Shown here piece by piece: positions 930 to 15,349 of a stretch of DNA of 21,209 bases. The notes beneath the pieces were generated by a model that was not told where the DNA came from, made no database searches, and saw only the letters and a program-made list of their open reading frames with translations. The stretch's first letter is position 1; every line of letters starts with the position of its first letter. Position numbers and translations under genes: made by a program. Origin of the DNA: a virus; the IMG/VR virus record IMGVR_UViG_3300042300_000076, positions 1 to 21,209 of that record; one strand, written 5' to 3'.

Positions 930-1132
930 ATTGCCCCCGATGCTTTTGCTACCCAAACTCGTATGCGGTAAATCTGCTCCTGTTCTACCGTCTCCTGTAG
1001 GCGTTCGTTCTCTGAGTGCAGTCGGCGCAGTTCGGCAGCGGCTTTGCCGACATTGGCATTGATGCCGCGATACCCAAGCAGCGCGTCCAATGCCGCAGCC
1101 AACCGCAGGGGTTCGGGTTGTTCTGTGCTCAT
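926..1132 (-). CDS. Small coiled-coil phage protein (68 aa)
   Basis: The start at 1132 gives MSTEQPEPLRLAAALDALLG and overlaps the stop of the 209-aa gene (ATGA, 1132-1129). The more upstream ATG at 1177 is rejected because it lies inside that gene. Residues about 27-55 (AAAELRRLHSENERLQETVE) show heptad-like spacing of leucines and acidic/basic pairs typical of a short coiled coil. This MS.EQPE.LRLA.AL...AAAELRRLH.EN type is, from memory, a common small protein in Burkholderiales phages. No known function. It is part of the ATGA-linked chain. Confidence 0.75.
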   Translation of the reverse strand: MSTEQPEPLRLAAALDALLGYRGINANVGKAAAELRRLHSENERLQETVEQEQIYRIRVWVAKASGAI

Positions 1133-1758
1133 GTTCGCTCCTCGATGTTGTAGAACCAGTCGTCGCCAGCAGACCACTTGCGCGTACCATCAACAGTCCA
1201 AAAAGTCTTGGCTGCTTGGAAGTCAGGAAACTTGACTTCGGCAGGGATCAGTGATTGGTCGTACCAAAGGCAGCGGTTGTTGGGCTGCGTGGCGAACTGG
1301 CCGTTCTCCAGCCGAATAAAGTTAAACGATTTGTGCTCCTCGGCCTGCTCGGTAAAGCCCGTGTCAGCGTCCATACCATCGGCGCAGAAGTCCACCGTGA
1401 ACAGGTAGCGCCCGTGGTTCCATTGCTTGTCCTTGCCGAGAAACTTGACCCCAAGGTTGCGCAGGCCGATCTTCTCGCACACCGTAAAGCGGTAGCCCAT
1501 GCAGTCCCACAGTTGCAGCGTGTCAATGGGCAAGTCGCCGTGGTCCTCCTTCCAAACGTAAGCGCTGATCGGCAGCTTGTCGTACAGCGCCCCGTAGTTG
1601 GGTAGCAGCGACTCGATGCGGAACACTTGACCCCGCAGCGCCTTAATGCTCACCCAGATGGCGGGCTCTAGCTCGCCGTGGCCCTTGGTGAAGTTGTACA
1701 AGTACTCCCGGCGCACGAAGCACTTCAGGGGTGGCAGCGCCGCGATGATGTAGCTCAT
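1129..1758 (-). CDS. Hypothetical phage protein (209 aa), first gene of leftward chain
   Basis: A 209-aa soluble protein starting MSYIIAALPPLKCFVRREYL and rich in aromatic residues (many W, F, Y), ending DDWFYNIEERT. The ATG at 1758 is preceded by AAAGGAAAAACA, a good Shine-Dalgarno at suitable spacing. Aromatic-rich patches such as WNHGRYLFTVDFCADG and the final W-S-A-G-D-D-W-F-Y suggest a compact beta-rich fold. I do not recognise a domain. It heads the six-gene ATGA-coupled block 1758-3 and is separated from the helicase block by a 45-bp spacer carrying a perfect CTAGC-N5-GCTAG operator (1793-1807), so it may be independently transcribed and controlled by the same repressor as the divergent switch. 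Confidence 0.8.
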   Translation of the reverse strand: MSYIIAALPPLKCFVRREYLYNFTKGHGELEPAIWVSIKALRGQVFRIESLLPNYGALYDKLPISAYVWKEDHGDLPIDTLQLWDCMGYRFTVCEKIGLRNLGVKFLGKDKQWNHGRYLFTVDFCADGMDADTGFTEQAEEHKSFNFIRLENGQFATQPNNRCLWYDQSLIPAEVKFPDFQAAKTFWTVDGTRKWSAGDDWFYNIEERT

Positions 1759-3592: not shown

Positions 3593-4674
3593 ACAAACCG
3601 TCCACCGTGTTGCTTGCGCAGGTGCAGCACAAACTCGTCAACCAGCGCAGTCTTGTCCACACTGGCGTGTATCTCTGCACTAGAGATATGGTCAGCGTTG
3701 ACGTTGGGGTCGCCATTGGTAAATTGCTTGTCACCTAGCTGATACACCACACCACCATCAGCGGTGTGATCCACTGGGTGAGCAGTCTTGGCCAACAAGA
3801 TGGGGATGTAGCGGTGGTCAGAACAACCTTGGCGCTGCTTATCGGGGTGCAGGCTGTCGCTGTGCAAGCCACAAGACCAGCGGGCCGTGCCGTCCATCTC
3901 CGGCGTTACGTGAGCGCACGAACGGCAGGTGGGGGCTGGCACATCAGTGCCGTGGCAGATCGCTTGGTAGTCGCAGAACTTGCACTCGTACCATGTCGGG
4001 TCGGTTGAGATGCCAACGGGCGGCTCGGTAGCGGTGATCACGGCCAAAGCTTTGCTGATGATGGCATCTGCAAAGGCCGGGTCAAACTCTAGTCGTTCGG
4101 TGTAGATGTCGTCGTTGTCCTTGTTCACCACAAAGTACAGTGCCCTGCGGCAACCGTCCTCGCCAAACTCGTCAATCGACCACTTCATGTAAATCTGCAT
4201 CTGGGCGTAGTGTTCAGGCTTGGCCTGCTTAACTCCAACCTTCTGCATTTCCTTGAACATCTTGTCGCTGGCCGTCTTGATCTCCAAGATGTGCGGCGCT
4301 TTAGGGGCTTGCGGCAGGCCGGTCAAAATGCCGTCTGCGTTGCCTTGGAAGTGATGGCCACAAGCTGGCTCAGTAAACGACCACTGCTTGCCCGTTGCCG
4401 GGTTGTCTTGGTACACGGTGCAGCCAATGCCTGCCAAGTCTGCGTACACCCTTGGCTCTTGCAGGTGGCCGGACTGGAACACTCGGTAAAGACGACCAGA
4501 GAACTCGGCAGGCTTAGACCAGCGAAAGCTGTACCAATGCTGGCGCAGACAAGGCTTGCCAATGGCAGATGCGCCAAGGTAAGTTCGCTGCTTCTCGCTG
4601 CCATGCTTTGCCTTGTAGTAGGCAAAGATGGCATCGGCCACAGGATCAGAAACTGATTGTGGAATCAGGGCCAT
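3589..4674 (-). CDS. PD-(D/E)XK nuclease, Cas4/RecB-like with Fe-S type cysteines (361 aa)
   Basis: A RecB/Cas4-family nuclease. The active-site pattern is visible: G-N-A-D-G (Asp114), I-L-E-I-K (Glu131, Lys133) and the QxxxY motif Q158-M-Q-I-Y162. Cys42 near the N-terminus plus Cys231, Cys234 and Cys240 (C-x2-C-x5-C) match the four cysteines that hold a 4Fe-4S cluster in Cas4 and AddB. A further cluster (C250-x2-C253, later W-S-C-G and G-C-S-D-H) forms an extra C-terminal Cys/His module, seen in phage relatives. The likely role is 5'-3' or end-processing exonuclease in recombination with the downstream helicase and the upstream Sak4 and SSB proteins. There is no Cas1/Cas2 or array nearby, so it is not a CRISPR gene. 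Its start shares one base with the preceding stop (TAATG). Confidence 0.9.
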   Translation of the reverse strand: MALIPQSVSDPVADAIFAYYKAKHGSEKQRTYLGASAIGKPCLRQHWYSFRWSKPAEFSGRLYRVFQSGHLQEPRVYADLAGIGCTVYQDNPATGKQWSFTEPACGHHFQGNADGILTGLPQAPKAPHILEIKTASDKMFKEMQKVGVKQAKPEHYAQMQIYMKWSIDEFGEDGCRRALYFVVNKDNDDIYTERLEFDPAFADAIISKALAVITATEPPVGISTDPTWYECKFCDYQAICHGTDVPAPTCRSCAHVTPEMDGTARWSCGLHSDSLHPDKQRQGCSDHRYIPILLAKTAHPVDHTADGGVVYQLGDKQFTNGDPNVNADHISSAEIHASVDKTALVDEFVLHLRKQHGGRFV

Positions 4675-7302: not shown

Positions 7303-7521
7303 ATGAACACACAAATCACACCAGATGAGCGCCGACGACTGGCAGAAAAAGTTGGCATGAACGAACAGTACATCTACCAGTGCCTCACCGGCAGGCGTGA
7401 GATGTCGGCAGCAGAAGCTGTGCGCATTGAGCAAGAGTCTTTGGGGGCGGTGACTCGCAAGATGGTGTGCCAGGGCACCTGGCAGTCGATCTGGCCTGAA
7501 CTTGTTGAGGCACAAGCATGA
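7303..7521 (+). CDS. YdaS/Cro-like HTH transcriptional regulator (72 aa)
   Basis: The start at 7303 gives MNTQITPDERRRLAEKVGMN; a frame start at 7285 is less likely because it lies in the operator. Residues about 10-46 form a small lambda-repressor/Cro type helix-turn-helix domain: RRLAEKVGMNEQYIYQCLTG then RREMSAAEAVRIEQES. YdaS-like proteins, known from Rac-type prophages, have this length and the pattern (LA..(V/I)G....Y.....GRR.(M/I)....A..IE..S). The remaining 25 residues are a short tail. It is the first rightward gene, faces the leftward promoter, and its stop overlaps the primase ATG (ATGA). Likely role: Cro-like repressor or switch protein binding the CTAGC-N5-GCTAG sites. No CI-type partner with a peptidase domain is seen in the window. 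Confidence 0.8.
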   Translation: MNTQITPDERRRLAEKVGMNEQYIYQCLTGRREMSAAEAVRIEQESLGAVTRKMVCQGTWQSIWPELVEAQA

Positions 7522-9569
7522 CCTCCCTTTCAACCATCTTCCCTAACGGCTTTGCAGCAGCGACAGAAAGCCAAGACCTGATCAACCCAGAGGAATCGTT
7601 TCGCCGTCACTGTGAGGCGGCTGGCCTGCTGATCAAGGACCAGATCGTGGCAGACGGTGAGATACACCGTGTGGCTCATGTCTCGAGCAAAAAAGGTGCA
7701 TTGGATGGCTGGTACATCTTGCACACTAGCGGCAAGGTGCCCGTGGGCATTGCTGGGTGCTGGAAGGAGCCAGTGTTCGAAGCCAAGTGGGTGGCTGAAA
7801 CGTCAAGGCAGATGACGTTCACAGAAAGGTTTGAGCATGACAGGTGGATCACTGAGGTCAAGGCCAAGAAAGAAGCTGCAAGGCTGGTGAGTCAGGCCGT
7901 GGCAGCAGAGCGTGCGGAAGATGAAGTCGGCACCTATGCGGATGCCAGCGCAGATCATCCTTACCTTGTGCGCAAGCACATCAAGGCTCACGGCGTAAAG
8001 ATCGACCGTGCTGGGCGGCTGGTGGTGCCGGTGAGTAGCCAGCAAGGAGAAATACTGTCTTACCAGACCATTGATGCTGATGGCAACAAAAGATTTCTTA
8101 AAGGCGGCAAGATCGAAGGCGGGTTTTACGAGCTACGCGGGAACCGGAAGGTGGTGTTTGTTGGCGAGGGGTTTGCTACCTGCGCGTCCATCCATGAGGC
8201 GACGGGCTACACCGTGATGGTGGCCTTTGATTGCGGCAACTTGGCCAAGGTTGCCAAAGCAGCCAAGGAGATGTTCCCAGGCTCTAAGATTGTGATCGGC
8301 GCAGACAACGACCAATTTACAGAGGGCAACCCTGGCGTGGCGAAGGGCAGGGCAGCGGCAGCGCTGGTGTTTGGCGAGGTTGTCTACCCACAATTCGGGA
8401 ATGCTGATATGGTTGACAACAAACCAACAGACTTTAACGACCTGCACTGCCTGCAAGGTCTGGATGCCGTGAAAGAGCAGATTGAGCGCGTAGCAGGCCC
8501 AGTGCGGGACAAACTGGGTTTTGAGTTCACCAGAGCAGACAACCTTGAGTTGCACCAGATCAAGTGGGTGGTCGATGACTACATCGAGGCAGACTCCCTC
8601 GCGCAAGTCTTCGGTGATCCAGGTGGCGGCAAGTCCTTTGTCAGCATTGATCTGGCCTGCTGCGTGGCCACCGGCAAAGACTGGCACGGCCACCAAGTCC
8701 AGCAAGGTGCAGTCTTCTACATCGCAGGCGAGGGCCACAACGGCTTGGCTAGGCGTTTCAAAGCATGGCAACTGGGCAATGGCCAGACCTTAGACGGTGC
8801 GCCGTTATACAAAAGCCACCGCGCAGCGCAGTTGTACGACACAACAGAGGCGGCAATCGTTGCCGAGAGCATTAAGGAACTGTCAGCCCAGTCCGGCTGC
8901 ATCCCCAGCATGATCATCATCGACACCCTGGCCAGAAACCACGGAGGGGATGAAAATTCTACTCAGGACATGAATGCGTTCATCCAGCATTTGGACACCT
9001 ACCTGCGCCAGCCGTGGAAGTGCTGCGTTCTGGTGGTGCACCACTCAGGCGTTGCCGACAAAGACCGCAGTAGGGGTAGCACGGCGCTCAAAGGGGCATT
9101 GGATGCTGAGTACCGCTGCCAGTTGGACTCGGGCACTAAGACCATCGCCTTTGAGTCCAAAAAGATGAAGGACGCGGAAATGCCAGCGCCCAAGAACTTC
9201 CAGATCACCCAAGTTGATCTGCCCATCCTCGACAAGCACGGCAACCCAGTGCGAGGTGCCTACCTCACCGCGGTCGACCTGAACGGGCTTATAGACAGCA
9301 TCCAAAAGCGCACCGTGCTCTCAGGCAACCAACGCCTGGCACTGAACTGCCTTGTCGCCATCGAGGTCAAGAGAGCCAGTGACGGGGTGCAAGGCTTTGC
9401 CGCGCAGGTGGACTACGACGAGTGGCGGGACTCGGCCAAAGAACACGGCATGAACGCCAGACGGTTTGCAGAATCAATCAAGGCATTGGTCAAAAAAGAG
9501 ATGGTGCTGGACAGGTCGGGGATGTACCGCAGTGTGCCAAAACCAATAGAAGAAGGTGTGGCGACATGA
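7518..9569 (+). CDS. Primase-helicase: Toprim plus RepA-like hexameric helicase domain (683 aa)
   Basis: A two-domain replication protein. The N-terminal part contains a Toprim domain: VFVGEG with catalytic Glu217, then VIGADND with Asp263/Asp265. After a linker, an AAA_25/RepA-type RecA fold begins with Walker A GDPGGGKS (366-373) and Walker B MIIIDTLA (465-472), followed by VLVVHHSG (a motif typical of RepA/RadA-like helicases). The C-terminal 100 residues look like a winged-helix region (ALNCLVAIE ... MNARRFAESIKALVKKEMVL). A D5/CHC2 zinc finger is not visible at the N-terminus. It should prime and unwind at the phage origin. ATG overlaps the regulator stop; the final TGA overlaps the next ATG, giving a coupled rightward operon. 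Confidence 0.93.
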   Translation: MTSLSTIFPNGFAAATESQDLINPEESFRRHCEAAGLLIKDQIVADGEIHRVAHVSSKKGALDGWYILHTSGKVPVGIAGCWKEPVFEAKWVAETSRQMTFTERFEHDRWITEVKAKKEAARLVSQAVAAERAEDEVGTYADASADHPYLVRKHIKAHGVKIDRAGRLVVPVSSQQGEILSYQTIDADGNKRFLKGGKIEGGFYELRGNRKVVFVGEGFATCASIHEATGYTVMVAFDCGNLAKVAKAAKEMFPGSKIVIGADNDQFTEGNPGVAKGRAAAALVFGEVVYPQFGNADMVDNKPTDFNDLHCLQGLDAVKEQIERVAGPVRDKLGFEFTRADNLELHQIKWVVDDYIEADSLAQVFGDPGGGKSFVSIDLACCVATGKDWHGHQVQQGAVFYIAGEGHNGLARRFKAWQLGNGQTLDGAPLYKSHRAAQLYDTTEAAIVAESIKELSAQSGCIPSMIIIDTLARNHGGDENSTQDMNAFIQHLDTYLRQPWKCCVLVVHHSGVADKDRSRGSTALKGALDAEYRCQLDSGTKTIAFESKKMKDAEMPAPKNFQITQVDLPILDKHGNPVRGAYLTAVDLNGLIDSIQKRTVLSGNQRLALNCLVAIEVKRASDGVQGFAAQVDYDEWRDSAKEHGMNARRFAESIKALVKKEMVLDRSGMYRSVPKPIEEGVAT

Positions 9570-10438: not shown

Positions 10439-10442
10439 TGAT

Positions 10443-10629
10443 GTACCGAAGCGTACCGAAATGTACCGAAATCGGTACGGACGGTGGGGGGGTCTGATGT
10501 ACCGACGAATGTACCGATTTGTACCGAAACGTACCGATGTGTACCGAAGGAACCCACCTCTGGTGTACCGAAACGTACCGAACGTGTCTATAGACACGTT
10601 CAGGTTCGGTACATAAAGGGTTTCGGTAC
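10443..10629. repeat. GTACCGA iteron-like array (10 direct, 3 inverted copies)
   Basis: Copies of GTACCGA on the plus strand start at 10443, 10453, 10463, 10499, 10511, 10521, 10531, 10541, 10565 and 10575; inverted TCGGTAC copies start at 10472, 10606 and 10623. Most neighbours are 10 bp apart (unit about GTACCGAAAY), one helical turn, so bound proteins would line up on one face. The unit length is not a multiple of three and stops interrupt the frames, so it is not a protein repeat. It starts five bases after the PP-loop gene stop, within a gene-free stretch of 269 bases (10439-10707). Best guesses are a replication origin bound by a phage initiator or a regulatory or partition site. Confidence 0.85.
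10580..10601. repeat. 22-bp perfect palindrome in the GTACCGA array
   Basis: The left arm GAACGTGTCTA is followed directly by its reverse complement TAGACACGTTC, with no interruption. It shares its first three bases with the last direct GTACCGAA copy and is followed four bases on by an inverted copy (10605-10612). Both strands could extrude a cruciform; as RNA it would be a hairpin with no U-tract, so not a standard terminator. A dimeric protein site at an origin is the simplest reading. Confidence 0.8.
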
Positions 10630-10707
10630 ATGGTGTGCGTTCGGGGGGCGTTTTGGGGCTGGTTCAGGGATGGCTTGGGATGGTGATGATTGGATGGGGG
10701 GTGTGGC

Positions 10708-11046: not shown

Positions 11047-11132
11047 CGGGGTGCGCACATGCAGTTGCCGCATCTTTGGGGAAAACGCACCCGCGGCGTG
11101 AGTACCCGTATTTTTTAGGAGTTTACAAGTGA
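11043..11132 (+). CDS. Candidate 29-aa coupled ORF between RusA-like and small terminase
   Basis: Reading from ATG 11043 gives MTGCAHAVAASLGKTHPRRE then YPYFLGVYK and TGA. The ATG overlaps the RusA-like stop by four bases (ATGA) and the TGA overlaps the GTG start of the small terminase by four bases (GTGA). Coupling at both ends is hard to explain by chance alone and would keep ribosomes moving into the terminase gene, but the same tract also carries the terminase ribosome site. No homologue is known to me and the frame is very short, so it may serve only as a coupling leader. Confidence 0.4.
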   Translation: MTGCAHAVAASLGKTHPRREYPYFLGVYK

Positions 11133-11641
11133 CTGAAAACTTGGCGTCAGAGATGACAGTGAAAAGAGGTCCAGGCCGTCCACCAGTATTCCCACTCGAG
11201 CACCCCGTCTGGGCTGAGATATGCAAACAAATCTCGTCCGGCAAAAGCATCACCAGCACACTCAAGCAGCCCGGTATGCCAAGCTACCAGTGCGCCATGC
11301 TCATGATTCGGAACAACGCAGAGTTCCGCACCATGTACGAGCGAGCCACCGAAAGCCGCGCTGACCGACTGGCCGAAGAGATCATCGAGCTGGCCGACGA
11401 AGAAATGCCCGCGTGCCTCGAAGGACCAATGGCGTCTGCCTGGGTTCAGCAAAAGCGCTTGCAAGTAGACGCTCGCAAGTGGGTTGCCTCAAAGCTCTAC
11501 TCAAAGCGCTATGGCGAACGCATCGACGTTGCCGTCACCGACACCCGCATCAGCGTTATGGATGCCCTCAAAGATGCCAAACAACGTGTGCTTCTGGACA
11601 ACAGCAATGTCGTAGACGTTCAGGCTAAAGACGTTGCGTAA
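11129..11641 (+). CDS. Terminase small subunit (170 aa)
   Basis: GTG start at 11129 with TAGGAG upstream at about seven bases. The N-terminus has KRGPGRPPVFP, an AT-hook-like GRPP segment. A helix-turn-helix region follows: ICKQISSGKSITSTLKQPGM with PSYQCAMLMIRNNAEFRTMY, then RATESRADRLAEEIIELADE and a region with LQVDARKWVASKLYSKRYGE. This pattern (HTH, E/A-R-A-...-A-D, D..KW.AS.L.P..YG.R) is that of the Sf6 gp1/terminase small subunit family that recognises the packaging site and delivers DNA to the large subunit. Unlike most phages, it is separated from the large terminase by a 381-bp gap and a 599-aa gene. Codon use is similar to neighbours. Confidence 0.88.
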   Translation: MTENLASEMTVKRGPGRPPVFPLEHPVWAEICKQISSGKSITSTLKQPGMPSYQCAMLMIRNNAEFRTMYERATESRADRLAEEIIELADEEMPACLEGPMASAWVQQKRLQVDARKWVASKLYSKRYGERIDVAVTDTRISVMDALKDAKQRVLLDNSNVVDVQAKDVA

Positions 11642-11807
11642 GGGTGATTGCTTCCGGTTTTGAGGGTAATGAGGGGGGTTTGGGGCGCATTACGCACGAA
11701 ATCTGTACGATTACGCGCACGCGCCTAACACAAACAAATGAGGGCAAACCCTAACAAAACCGCACATACACTTCGTACAACCTTCATTATGTTAAGTTCG
11801 TGCAAAG

Positions 11808-11896
11808 TTATCCACAGAAAAACTAACGCTTGCGGCCTACATTTGCAGTTGTCCACAGGCAACTGTGCATAACTAGCGCAAAACCCTTGTGGACAA
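11808..11896. promoter_or_regulatory. Cluster of four DnaA-box-like 9-mers
   Basis: TTATCCACA (11808-11816, the perfect DnaA box), TTGTCCACA (11849-11857), TTATGCACA on the minus strand (11872-11864), and TTGTCCACA on the minus strand (11896-11888). One matches the strong R1-type box, one fits the TTWTNCACA consensus, and two differ from it at position 3. All lie within 89 bp. A hairpin-forming CAGTTG/CAACTG pair (11846-11865) encloses box two. Four boxes this close are far above chance and imply a DnaA-dependent step, such as host DnaA-aided origin opening. Confidence 0.7.
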
Positions 11897-11979
11897 CCCG
11901 CCCTGGCCCTCCGCTGGCCGGATCGAGGGGGGGGGTGGGGGCCCGCGGCGAGGGGTCACGGTTACGGTGCCCCCGCGAA

Positions 11980-12014
11980 CATTTTGGAATATTTTTTTAA
12001 AAAAATGATTTAAC
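11980..12014. other. AT-rich stretch, candidate unwinding element
   Basis: A strongly AT-rich run follows the DnaA cluster and the GC block. It contains the 16-bp palindrome ATTTTTTTAAAAAAAT (11991-12006). T7A7 tracts are easily melted or bent. A position about 85-100 bp from the last DnaA box suits a duplex unwinding element, but it also directly precedes the 599-aa gene, where it could act as an upstream promoter element. Confidence 0.45.
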
Positions 12015-12022
12015 ATCTGGCG

Positions 12023-13822
12023 ATGCCGATCTACCGCAACAATTTGCAGCAAGCGCCCGCGAACAGGCTGGCGTATCCGGACACGATTGGCCCGACGCCT
12101 CGTAACGAGTTGTTGGGTTACTTGGCTGACTTGGCGGCATCGTCGTACTCACCGCAGCGCACCCAGCAGATGCAGGGTGTAGCGAGGTTTCTGTCTGCTC
12201 CGGCGGTAAGCGAGACATTGGACCGGCTGTCGTATGGCCAGCCTTTGACGACTGGCAGGGGGATGACGACACGCATAAGGCCGGAGGCATTAGAAGCTGG
12301 CTTGGCCGTGGCTCCCTTGGCGCAACCTGTGACCTTGGCGACCTTGCAGGCAGCGAGGGCAGCTACGCGGGCGGCGATGGCGGGTGGCATGGCTGGTGAG
12401 CGTTTGGCTGAGAGGGTTGTGCCAGGCATCATGGAGCGTGGTGGTTTGCCTGCTGAGATATTGCAGGGTTTGGCGCAGGGTTCGAGAAGTCAGGTGTTGC
12501 CTGTTCCAACTCCCACTAAAGCAATTAGACGATTTAACGACGGCGGCCTTGAGGTTGGTTATGGCAGAGGCGACTCAAAAATTTTGGTCACAGTTGCCCC
12601 GCAAGGTAAAAATGACCGAATGTTAAGCGCGAGCCTTGAGAACATTGGTGGCTATCCATCAGGCACGGGCGATGCAACAATGGCGTATGTAGACGCGCTT
12701 GAGTCGGTGATAAAAGACGCCAGAGGCAGAAAAGTTTACTGGGATGGGTTTACATCAGAGTCAATTCAAAGTGATAAAGCTCGAGCTATTTACGATAGGT
12801 TAAAGGCAGCGGGTATTCCATTTGAAAAAAATGTGTTTAAGGATCGTAGTAAAAACGCATTGTCTTTGACGCAAGAACAATTGTTGAACATTAATTTTGA
12901 TCAAGTGCGAAACAACCTTATAAAGTCTGCGGCTAAAAAGCAATTTTCCCAAGCCCCCCAAGCAGAGGCATTGGCACTGGCCCAGCAACGCGCAGCCTTG
13001 CCGGTTGAGCAGTACGGCCTTGGCTTGCCTGCGAACAACACACCGGCCCAAAGGGCTAGGGCAATGAAGTTTGAGGATCGTGGATTTCACGAAACTGAAG
13101 GGGCCAACATAGAAGGTGGGTTGTTGAGTTTTGATCCTCGTCGTGTTGGCGCTGCGGCATCTGATGAACAGACACCGTATGCAATGTTTGTAAAGCCACA
13201 TGGTGCTGGTATTGGAATTGCGAAAAACAACCCTGCACAAATGCCATTGATGGTCAAAACTAATTTGACTGATGAGAACATTATGCGTTCTTTTGGCAAT
13301 AGGGATGAATTGCAGCAGTATTTAAATCAGTTTCCCGATATAAAGCAAGCTACGCAAGCTGTTCGTGATTTAGACAATAAAATGGCTAATTACATGAAGG
13401 GAATTGAAAAGAAAGCTGATAATCTTTATGCAGAAGGCAAGACAAAAGAAGCAGATAAACTTCTGGACTCTTTAAACTTTGACAGTAATTTGTTAAAAGA
13501 GTTTGATGCCAGAACAAATGAACTTGCTGCTATTTCCAAGAAAAAGATTACTGATCTTTTTAATTCTCAACAAGTCGGAACAGTTGCTTTAGACAGAGAT
13601 GCTGGCGCTTTTGGAAGAAGCACCATGACGGAAATGGTTTTAAACCCTGCCGAAAATGTGCGCTCCCGCTTCGCCGCCTTTGACCCTTTCAGGCGCAACG
13701 CTGCAATTGCCGCAGCGACTGGTGCTTTGGCTCCTGACCTGTTGGCAGCGCAAGCAGAGCAAGACGCATATTCGCAAAACGAGTTGCGCAGGTTTGTGCG
13801 TCAGAGTCGCCAGAACAAGTAA
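12023..13822 (+). CDS. Polyvalent virion-associated protein with ART-like region (599 aa)
   Basis: The N-terminal about 150 residues (LSYGQPLTTGRG at about 70-81, RIRPEALEAGL, an Ala/Gly-rich hydrophobic stretch) look like the shared N-terminus of phage polyvalent proteins, which enter the cell with DNA. Residues about 165-280 (GDATMAYVDALESVIKDARG, RAIYDRLKAAGIPF) resemble an acetyltransferase-like or LPD module. ALALAQQRAALPVEQYGLGL then NTPAQRARAM leads to FEDRGFHETEG...FDPRRVGAAASDEQT (about 350-385), reminiscent of the H-G-T motif of ADP-ribosyltransferases, here H-E-T. The end NVRSRFAAFDPFRRN (about 550-564) is the typical closing signature of such proteins. GC content falls sharply inside (40 of 60 bases at 12361-12420, 18 of 60 at 13441-13500). 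No clear ribosome site precedes the ATG. Enzyme activity is inference. Confidence 0.7.
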   Translation: MPIYRNNLQQAPANRLAYPDTIGPTPRNELLGYLADLAASSYSPQRTQQMQGVARFLSAPAVSETLDRLSYGQPLTTGRGMTTRIRPEALEAGLAVAPLAQPVTLATLQAARAATRAAMAGGMAGERLAERVVPGIMERGGLPAEILQGLAQGSRSQVLPVPTPTKAIRRFNDGGLEVGYGRGDSKILVTVAPQGKNDRMLSASLENIGGYPSGTGDATMAYVDALESVIKDARGRKVYWDGFTSESIQSDKARAIYDRLKAAGIPFEKNVFKDRSKNALSLTQEQLLNINFDQVRNNLIKSAAKKQFSQAPQAEALALAQQRAALPVEQYGLGLPANNTPAQRARAMKFEDRGFHETEGANIEGGLLSFDPRRVGAAASDEQTPYAMFVKPHGAGIGIAKNNPAQMPLMVKTNLTDENIMRSFGNRDELQQYLNQFPDIKQATQAVRDLDNKMANYMKGIEKKADNLYAEGKTKEADKLLDSLNFDSNLLKEFDARTNELAAISKKKITDLFNSQQVGTVALDRDAGAFGRSTMTEMVLNPAENVRSRFAAFDPFRRNAAIAAATGALAPDLLAAQAEQDAYSQNELRRFVRQSRQNK

Positions 13823-15349
13823 ATGCAAACCACGATCTACAAGCCCGAAGAAGAGCAAGAGCTGATGGCCACACTGTGGTCCCCGGCGATTGCAGATGAC
13901 CCTGAAGCGTTTGTGTTGTTTGCCTTTCCTTGGGGTCAGGAGAACACGCCGCTAGCGAACTTCAAGGGGCCAAGAAAATGGCAAAGGGAAGTGCTTAGAG
14001 ATGTTGCAGCGCACATAAAAAAGCAAAAGGGGCTGGTTGACTTTGAGACATTGCGCCAGGCCGTGTCGTCTGGCCGAGGGATTGGCAAGTCTGCCCTTGT
14101 CAGTTGGTTGACCATTTGGATGTTGACGACAAGGATAGGCTCAACCACCATCATCTCGGCCAACAGCGAGGCCCAGCTTCGGGCGGTAACATGGGCTGAG
14201 ATTACCAAGTGGTTGGCGATGGGGATCAACAGCCACTGGTTTGAGGTGTCAGCCACGAAGGTGGCACCTGCCAACTGGCTTTCAGAACTGGTTGAGAAGG
14301 ATTTGAGGAAGGGCACCCGTTATTGGGCGGTCGAAGGAAGGCTCTGGTCGGCAGAGAACCCTGACTCTTACGCTGGGGTTCACAATCACGATGGTGTGAT
14401 GGTGATCTTTGACGAGGCATCGGGCATTGACGATGCGATCTGGGCTGTGACGGCTGGATTCTTTACCGAGAACACGCCCAGCCGCCTTTGGTTGGCTTTT
14501 TCCAACCCACGGCGCAACACTGGCTACTTCTATGAGGCGTTTCACAGCAAGCGTGATTTTTGGACATCCAAGATTGTGGATGCCAGAACGGTTGAGGGCA
14601 CGGACAAGCAGGTCTACCAGGGGATCATTGACGAGTACGGCCCAGACTCCTCACAAGCGCACGTTGAGGTTTATGGCCAGTTTCCGAACGAGGGGGACGA
14701 CCAGTTTATTCCGACAAACTTGGTTGATGAGGCGATGGCAAGGGCCAAGTACAAGGACCAGACAGCGCCAATCATTGTGGGGGTGGACCCCGCAAGGTTT
14801 GGTGCTGATGCGACGGTGATTGCGATCCGGCAGGGCAGGGACATTGTTCGCATTGACCGGCACCGCGGCGATGACACCATGACGGTGGTGGGCCACATCA
14901 TTGAGGCTATAGAGGAGTTCAAACCTGCCTTGGTGGTGATTGACGAGGGTGGTCTTGGCGCTGGCATTGTTGACCGGCTCAAAGAGCAGAGGTATAAGGT
15001 CAAGGGCGTGAACTTTGGCAACAAGAGTGCCAATGCCATTATGTATGGCAACAAACGCGCCGAGATGTGGGGCAAGATGAAGGAATGGTTGAGAACGGCA
15101 AGTGTTCCGAAGGACAGGTTTCTGAAGTCTGATTTGGTATCGCCCATGATGAAGCCAGACTCTAGGGGCACTATTTTTCTGGAGAGCAAGAAGGAAATGA
15201 AGGCCCGAGGGCTTGCGTCACCGGATGCTGCTGACGCGATTTGCGTGACATTTGCTTTTCCTGTTGCCCATCGGGAGTACAATTCCAGCGCAATTGTCCG
15301 TAAATCTGCTGGAACGCAGGGCGTTTCAACATCTTGGATGGGGTCTTAA
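13823..15349 (+). CDS. Terminase large subunit (508 aa)
   Basis: The DNA-packaging motor. N-terminal ATPase: Walker A SSGRGIGKS (82-90) and Walker B MVIFDEAS with Asp197/Glu198; the coupling motif region follows at about 220 (LAFSNPRR). C-terminal RNase H-like nuclease: VGVDPARFGAD with Asp322, VVIDEGGLGA with Asp374, and SPDAADA with Asp468/Asp471. Length is typical for P22/Sf6-like large terminases. The ATG follows the previous stop directly (TAAATG). Packaging links head filling to cleavage of concatemers. It is followed immediately by three small basic genes and the portal. Strong call. Confidence 0.95.
   Translation: MQTTIYKPEEEQELMATLWSPAIADDPEAFVLFAFPWGQENTPLANFKGPRKWQREVLRDVAAHIKKQKGLVDFETLRQAVSSGRGIGKSALVSWLTIWMLTTRIGSTTIISANSEAQLRAVTWAEITKWLAMGINSHWFEVSATKVAPANWLSELVEKDLRKGTRYWAVEGRLWSAENPDSYAGVHNHDGVMVIFDEASGIDDAIWAVTAGFFTENTPSRLWLAFSNPRRNTGYFYEAFHSKRDFWTSKIVDARTVEGTDKQVYQGIIDEYGPDSSQAHVEVYGQFPNEGDDQFIPTNLVDEAMARAKYKDQTAPIIVGVDPARFGADATVIAIRQGRDIVRIDRHRGDDTMTVVGHIIEAIEEFKPALVVIDEGGLGAGIVDRLKEQRYKVKGVNFGNKSANAIMYGNKRAEMWGKMKEWLRTASVPKDRFLKSDLVSPMMKPDSRGTIFLESKKEMKARGLASPDAADAICVTFAFPVAHREYNSSAIVRKSAGTQGVSTSWMGS

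Follow-up and report, generated by a model that had tools for sequence, protein, structure and literature searches.

A conserved pairing of an Xer-type site with ordered DnaA boxes in tailed phages, and its possible role in resolving genome multimers

Introduction

Why would a tailed phage keep a row of DnaA boxes between its terminase genes? The question is raised by a viral contig of 21,209 bases. We analysed the whole of this stretch, which we call the window; the source record holds no further sequence. A preliminary description of the window reported the boxes and read them as a host-type origin or as a site that borrows host DnaA. It missed a 28-bp Xer-type site that ends 10 nt upstream of the first box.

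On chromosomes, FtsK controls Xer recombination, and on small plasmids ArgR or ArcA does so with PepA (PMC11724359, PMC5357621). At the plasmid sites cer and psi, these papers describe accessory sequences of ~200 bp that lie on the XerC side and bind ArgR or ArcA along with PepA. Below, we ask whether the Xer-type site and the DnaA boxes of the phage form a single unit, whether that unit is an origin, and what else it might do.

Results

Genes of the window

The plus strand of the window encodes a small YdaS/Cro-like regulator, whose gene adjoins that of the primase, and then the primase-helicase, the small terminase (TerS), a 599-aa protein, the large terminase (TerL), and a portal protein (Table 1). 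The minus strand encodes a helicase, a Cas4-like exonuclease, and SSB-like and Sak4-like proteins. The match of TerS to PF20901 bears out its earlier naming as a small terminase. The gene after the unit had been named a polyvalent gene, and we do not confirm that name because the gene has no match in Pfam or PHROGs. In other phages, a 508-aa open reading frame takes its place after the unit. Just before the 599-aa gene, about 10 nt from its ATG, TTTAACATC (12010-12022) is near-invariant among relatives. We saw no ribosome-binding site before this gene, and 12010-12022 might be a leaderless promoter.

Table 1. Positions of the features discussed, in the numbering of the window
Feature	Position	Strand	Evidence or remark
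Primase (TOPRIM) with RepA-type helicase (AAA_25)	7518..9569	+	PF13481 8e-38; PF13362 7e-10
Iteron-like GTACCGA array	10441..10631	.	Arrays at the corresponding place in 7/10 records
TerS, small terminase, Sf6-type	11129..11641	+	PF20901 E 2e-29; phrog_1482 6e-33
Xer-type (dif/psi/pdif-like) site	11770..11797	+	Arms match Rhodoferax ferrireducens dif; kept in relatives
XerC arm ACTTCGTACAA	11770-11780		
Centre of Xer site, CCTTCA	11781-11786		
XerD arm TTATGTTAAGT	11787-11797		
Spacer between Xer site and box 1	11798..11807	+	Fixed 10-nt length, variable sequence; 97/97 viral segments with Xer site
DnaA box 1, TTATCCACA	11808..11816	+	
DnaA box 2, TTGTCCACA	11849..11857	+	41 bp after box 1
DnaA box 3, TTATGCACA	11864..11872	-	15 bp after box 2, inverted
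DnaA box 4, TTGTCCACA	11888..11896	-	24 bp after box 3
GC block	11928..11977	.	TerL side, outside invertible unit; identity 0.83 among 25 gaps
AT-rich run with 16-bp palindrome (11991-12006)	11977..12016	.	AT-richest 40-mer of the window (start 11977)
599-aa gene, between Xer-DnaA unit and TerL	12023..13822	+	No family match (Pfam, PHROGs)
TerL, large terminase	13823..15349	+	phrog_2 8e-43

DnaA boxes

Four DnaA boxes within 89 bp had been reported, and all four are where they were said to be, far beyond what chance would give. In 400 windows simulated with an order-2 Markov model of the window, more than two such boxes never fell within 89 bp. The whole window has 5 boxes as compared to a mean of 1.3 in the simulations, and the only one of these kinds outside the cluster is a single TTGTCCACA at 3653.

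To compare relatives, we used matches in IMG/VR to TerS (32 loci) and to the 599-aa gene (the best 80 of 101). The gap between the two genes was available from 58 loci with both genes, which gave 32 distinct gaps; we aligned the 29 that were under 600 bp, of which 25 face the same way. In those 25, the boxes are 0.93-0.97 identical, as compared to 0.52-0.64 for the spacers between them. The lengths of these spacers are constant, with two exceptions: box 1 and its spacer are missing from L057, and L019 is shorter by one base. With few exceptions, the letters of the boxes vary only at position 5 (C, G, T, or A) and position 3 (A or G), which are the two places at which DnaA boxes tolerate change. 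Judging from these letters, the pattern would be hard to explain by a protein other than DnaA. So the earlier suggestion that the phage borrows host DnaA is well supported by the fixed spacing and by changes that fall almost entirely at positions 3 and 5. Also, we found no relatives that lose the boxes while keeping the rest of the gap: the boxes are kept and the spacers diverge.

The Xer-type site

The 28-bp site has the layout of dif, with two 11-bp arms in inverted relation around a 6-bp centre. Table 1 of PMC2731167 gives the dif site of Rhodoferax ferrireducens, which belongs to the Burkholderiales, as ACTTGATACGA-TGTATA-TTATGTTAAGT. The arms in the window are identical to that site at 19 of 22 positions (the host of the phage is itself only inferred), while the best arm score against the same site in 20 simulated windows was 16 of 22. 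The centre agrees with the Rhodoferax centre from that table at just 2 of 6 positions, and the dif sites of other hosts may differ. Going by the letters, such a mismatch to host-type dif is as expected for a site that would recombine with itself.

Across the viral modules, the XerD arm is TTATGTTAA-like and the centre is mostly YGWCCA. A minority form of the XerD arm, TTATGTAAAGT, is the XerD arm listed for Bordetella pertussis in the table in PMC2731167. Each of 10 records has one site whose XerD arm matches at 10 or 11 of 11 positions. In the alignment of 25 gaps, CATTATGTTAAGT, which lies directly upstream of box 1, has an identity of 0.978.

The site and the boxes as one unit

We also scanned viral contigs with the box triple alone (boxes 1 to 3, at spacings of 41 and 15 bp) and found at least 120 stretches. 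Together with the earlier loci, this gave the triple in at least 170 loci and 109 distinct segments with at least 60 nt of upstream sequence. Of the 98 distinct viral segments that were chosen by box geometry, 97 have an Xer site exactly 10 nt before box 1, the exception being L127. In the 11 distinct bacterial segments, no Xer site accompanies the triple.

Selecting by protein gave a similar picture. The Xer site is present in all 63 loci chosen by TerS homology (TerS identity of at least 64%). Of these 63, 60 pass a stricter test, and all 60 have the 10-nt spacer, with 5-15 nt allowed; some of these loci share a contig. Box 1 has decayed in three of the protein-chosen loci (L021, L022, and L030). 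In three others, with TerS at 32-34% identity, both the Xer site and the boxes are absent. As a control on spacing, we counted 8 stretches in viral contigs at 0-9 nt and 59 at 11-40 nt, versus at least 97 at 10 nt, and most of those at 11-40 nt are a single class at exactly 22 nt. We are nearly certain that the Xer site and the DnaA boxes are a real conserved unit.

Beyond the triple, whose boxes at +10, +51, and +66 are fixed by the selection of modules, additional boxes in 102 distinct modules occur only at +76 (47/102) and +90 (60/102). Box 4 is at the same place in 60 of these 102 modules.

Wherever both genes are visible, the unit is in the gap between TerS and TerL. We found it in no named isolate by BLAST: phages gave no matches or chance matches, and plasmids matched the Xer core or short pieces. 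DSL-LC05, whose portal protein is 78% identical, has neither the box cluster nor the Xer site, and it encodes its own DNA polymerase.

In 84,980 bacterial and archaeal genomes, the 41/15 triple occurs in just 13 stretches, none of which is from Burkholderiales by title. Given these 13 as compared to at least 120 viral stretches, and given the lack of an Xer site in the bacterial segments, we rejected the idea that the unit is a recent copy of a host's oriC. In two Acholeplasmatales genomes (L223 and L231), the same triple lies beside dnaA: the neighbouring gene in L223 is DnaA (PF00308), and the L231 gene clusters with it by blastp. This could be chance or a shared build of DnaA complexes. Another hit (L227, CAINTF010000009.1) is a phage contig with an Sf6-type TerS and the box triple that was binned in an "Acidimicrobium" MAG. 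Given its Burkholderiales-like setting, its placement is likely a binning error.

Two orientations and a second geometry

Six loci (L025, L058, L060, L061, L062, and L067) carry the entire unit in inverted orientation between TerS and the GC block. The 10-nt spacing is unchanged, and in this subgroup the unit is still located between TerS and TerL. The 22-nt class, which makes up 34 of 55 distinct stretches in both spacing scans, turned out to be a second geometry, with boxes at +22, +41, -67, and -99 in 33 of the 34. These phages have distant TerS, TerL, and primase proteins (mostly 28-43% identity), and the unit is again in the TerS-TerL gap, facing the other way. Its XerC arm, AATCGYTACAT, is divergent, which makes it doubtful that XerC binds in the second geometry. 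Because two geometries and two orientations occur at one genomic place, we think that the boxes and the Xer site function jointly and that, unlike for an FtsK-directed dif, it is immaterial which way the unit faces in the genome. A third geometry is perhaps represented by L292, L328, and L330, which have the Xer-like site ACTTTACACAA or ACTATACACAA, with the centre CGGGCA and a DnaA box at 35 nt.

Is the unit an origin?

The GC block, the AT-rich run with its A/T palindrome, and the GTACCGA array are all as previously described. If the phage had a DnaA-dependent origin here, then the boxes, the GC block, and the AT-rich run as the unwinding element would make up the origin, and the Xer site would be carried along for dimer resolution. 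Several observations fit. The boxes are perfect or near-perfect, with fixed spacing and conserved order, and the same triple adjoins dnaA in the Acholeplasmatales genomes. In 9 of 10 records, the AT-rich run is the AT-richest 40-mer, at 180-198 bp after the start of the XerD arm. The case is best for group A, where the run is the AT-richest 40-mer in each of four records and where minima of GC skew are scattered and uninformative. As in oriC and in iteron plasmids with DnaA boxes, the boxes are ordered and most members have an AT-rich run nearby.

Against this, and unlike in those origins, the boxes are locked to the Xer site. Inversion of the unit leaves the GC block where it was and the AT-rich run on the TerL side in either orientation, so this run is not carried along with the boxes. 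The second geometry has no AT-rich run, and what peaks locally in AT there is mostly the Xer site. Furthermore, the phage has its own primase-helicase as well as an iteron-like array. Such arrays are 1.2-1.4 kb upstream of the unit (in G001, G002, G004, G008, G009, G012, and G013), and across the window and its relatives the repeat letters are GTACCGA, TGCACCGA, AAACCGGT, and GTAATGCGGT. In group B, the detrended GC-skew minimum is not at the unit but 1456-1817 bp upstream of it in 5 of 5 records (G009-G013), which are related and are not five independent cases. The minimum lies beside the array, whose centre is at -1290 to -1354 in the three group-B records in which an array was found. Further DnaA boxes occur near the group-B arrays, ~131 and 11 bp apart; the records with extra boxes at the place of the skew minimum or array are G009, G010, G012, and G013.

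Given the skew minima, the positions of the arrays, and an AT-rich run that does not move with the unit, it is more likely that the phage's origin is at the array, possibly with help from DnaA there as well. We consider it rather unlikely that the unit is an origin. So of the two ideas in the preliminary description, the borrowing of host DnaA stands, while the host-type origin is demoted from first choice to a rival.

Separately, we considered whether the GC block might be a structured RNA or a terminator. Rfam gave no matches, the predicted RNA fold was no better than shuffles (z -0.59), and there is no terminator-like site, so we rejected this.

Discussion

A possible multimer-resolution site that uses DnaA

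We propose that the compound site is an Xer multimer-resolution site with an accessory sequence that binds host DnaA in place of ArgR/ArcA. This rests on our analysis of genome sequences, and we would give it a probability of about 0.5. The parts would be a 28-bp Xer site, to whose arms the host's XerC and XerD would bind, and then, 10 nt past the XerD arm, a row of DnaA boxes in set order (two forward, then two or three inverted), to which the host's DnaA would bind. By folding the DNA beside two sites of the same circular molecule, DnaA would build a defined synapse. XerCD would then recombine sites within the multimer, which would free monomers, rather than joining separate molecules. Most likely this would work as at cer and psi on plasmids, with DnaA in the role that ArgR/ArcA and PepA have there but acting from the XerD side. 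The phage's DNA would be kept as single-copy circles, and we infer that the phage would exist for some of its life cycle as a circle resembling a plasmid. More tentatively, host DnaA might be considered an accessory protein of the Xer system: a DnaA complex that is locked beside XerD, where FtsK would otherwise act, could couple the recombination of the phage circle to the replication initiator.

The phages do not seem to bring a recombinase of their own. The tyrosine recombinase domain PF00589 was found in 0 of 15 records, while 14 of 14 controls were positive, and a serine resolvase was found in 0 of 24 viral-contig records. PF00239 was present in only one of 26 records, MW202879. This is the closest named relative of group B that we found, with a TerS that is 55% identical to that of group B. 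In MW202879.1 (L265), a serine resolvase gene (966-1634, minus strand) is between TerS and TerL, and there is no Xer-DnaA unit. A resolvase in place of the unit fits with multimer resolution, but this is one case. We rejected replacement by a resolvase as a general rule, as the other relatives without the unit also lack a resolvase.

Some points sit less easily with this proposal. The boxes are on the XerD side, unlike known accessory sequences, and the XerC arm of the second geometry is divergent. A search of 12 records for ParA and ParB came up empty, which leaves plasmid-like lysogeny without further support. Also, a headful-packaging phage needs concatemers, so it would be odd to resolve multimers during the lytic cycle.

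In the literature that we searched, from which subscription journals were largely missing, we recognised no paper that deals with this unit or with a role for DnaA at Xer sites. If our proposal is correct, then there is a third control of Xer recombination, by DnaA, which joins the initiation of replication to the monomerisation of the genome. Also, a large group of integrase-free tailed phages would depend on two host systems at a single site. The unit can serve as a search pattern for such phages, and it is a short piece of DNA that can be tested.

Comparison to plasmid sites

The centre of psi ends in CCA, as do most of the phage centres. Like the phage site, psi of pSC101 has the 28-bp layout of XerC arm, centre, and XerD arm, and it is on a small circular replicon. 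Both psi and cer of ColE1 have ordered protein sites at a fixed distance beside the core, as in the phage unit. The differences are that the phage has DnaA boxes rather than sites for ArgR/ArcA, that these follow the XerD arm while the accessory sequences of cer and psi are on the XerC side (PMC11724359), and that the unit is in tailed-phage genomes of 34-38 kb rather than in plasmids.

When the module is compared to plasmids by BLAST, three Acinetobacter plasmids match over the 28 bp and no further. With E values of 1-4, these matches are weak and not significant on their own. The pdif sites of Acinetobacter plasmids are nearly identical 28-mers, ACTTCGTATAA-CCGCCA-TTATGTTAAGT, and the plasmid centres CCGCCA and CCTCCA resemble the phage centre. 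In two of the three plasmids, there are no DnaA boxes within 92-94 nt past the site; the sequence of the third stops 16 nt beyond the site. One of the plasmids belongs to a set that was studied for pdif, and a passage in PMC6449649 does not name this site. The abstract of that paper reports that there are often several pdif sites per plasmid, as compared to one Xer site per phage genome.

Other explanations

The unit could instead be the attP of a temperate phage that integrates into its host's dif by XerCD, with DnaA as an architectural helper. There is precedent in the IMEX phages (CTXphi, VGJphi, and TLCphi), which have no integrase of their own and use host XerCD through a dif-like site. 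Our phages also lack an integrase (in all 15 records), the arms fit with a Burkholderiales dif, and a YdaS/Cro-like regulator adjoins the primase. However, the IMEX phages, which integrate at dif, are filamentous or satellites, whereas these are tailed phages with double-stranded DNA, and DnaA boxes are attached to their sites. The centres differ from the TGTATA of host-type dif and resemble those of pdif and psi, which disfavours integration there. In virus collections, which are trimmed, we incidentally noticed no contigs that join phage to bacterial sequence at the site, and a single scan of genome contigs yielded no prophage with the unit. Integration at dif is, we think, quite unlikely.

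It is very unlikely that the unit is a regulatory or titration site, at which DnaA would control the transcription of late genes or would be soaked up, as at datA. The unit is upstream of the late operon and has several high-affinity boxes, but it occurs in both orientations, its distance to the next large gene ranges from about 200 to more than 700 bp, and neither role needs an Xer site at a fixed spacing. Finally, although the unit's constant place between the terminase genes might suggest a packaging signal, with the repeats as TerS binding sites and the GC block as a cos or pac site, this is highly improbable, as the variation follows the rules of DnaA boxes, MW202879 has a related TerS without the box cluster or the Xer site, and contig ends are not concentrated at any single base (a weak test).

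A palindrome on the XerC side

In the window, the XerC arm is preceded by a degenerate palindrome (11741-11752), which takes the form AGGGTTAACCCT in L003-L018 and others. Of 115 modules, only 28 have this form ahead of the XerC arm, at 16-17 nt in 20 of them and at 5 or 7 nt in the other 8. The two distances are about one helical turn apart, and the palindrome may be a second protein site, on the XerC side.
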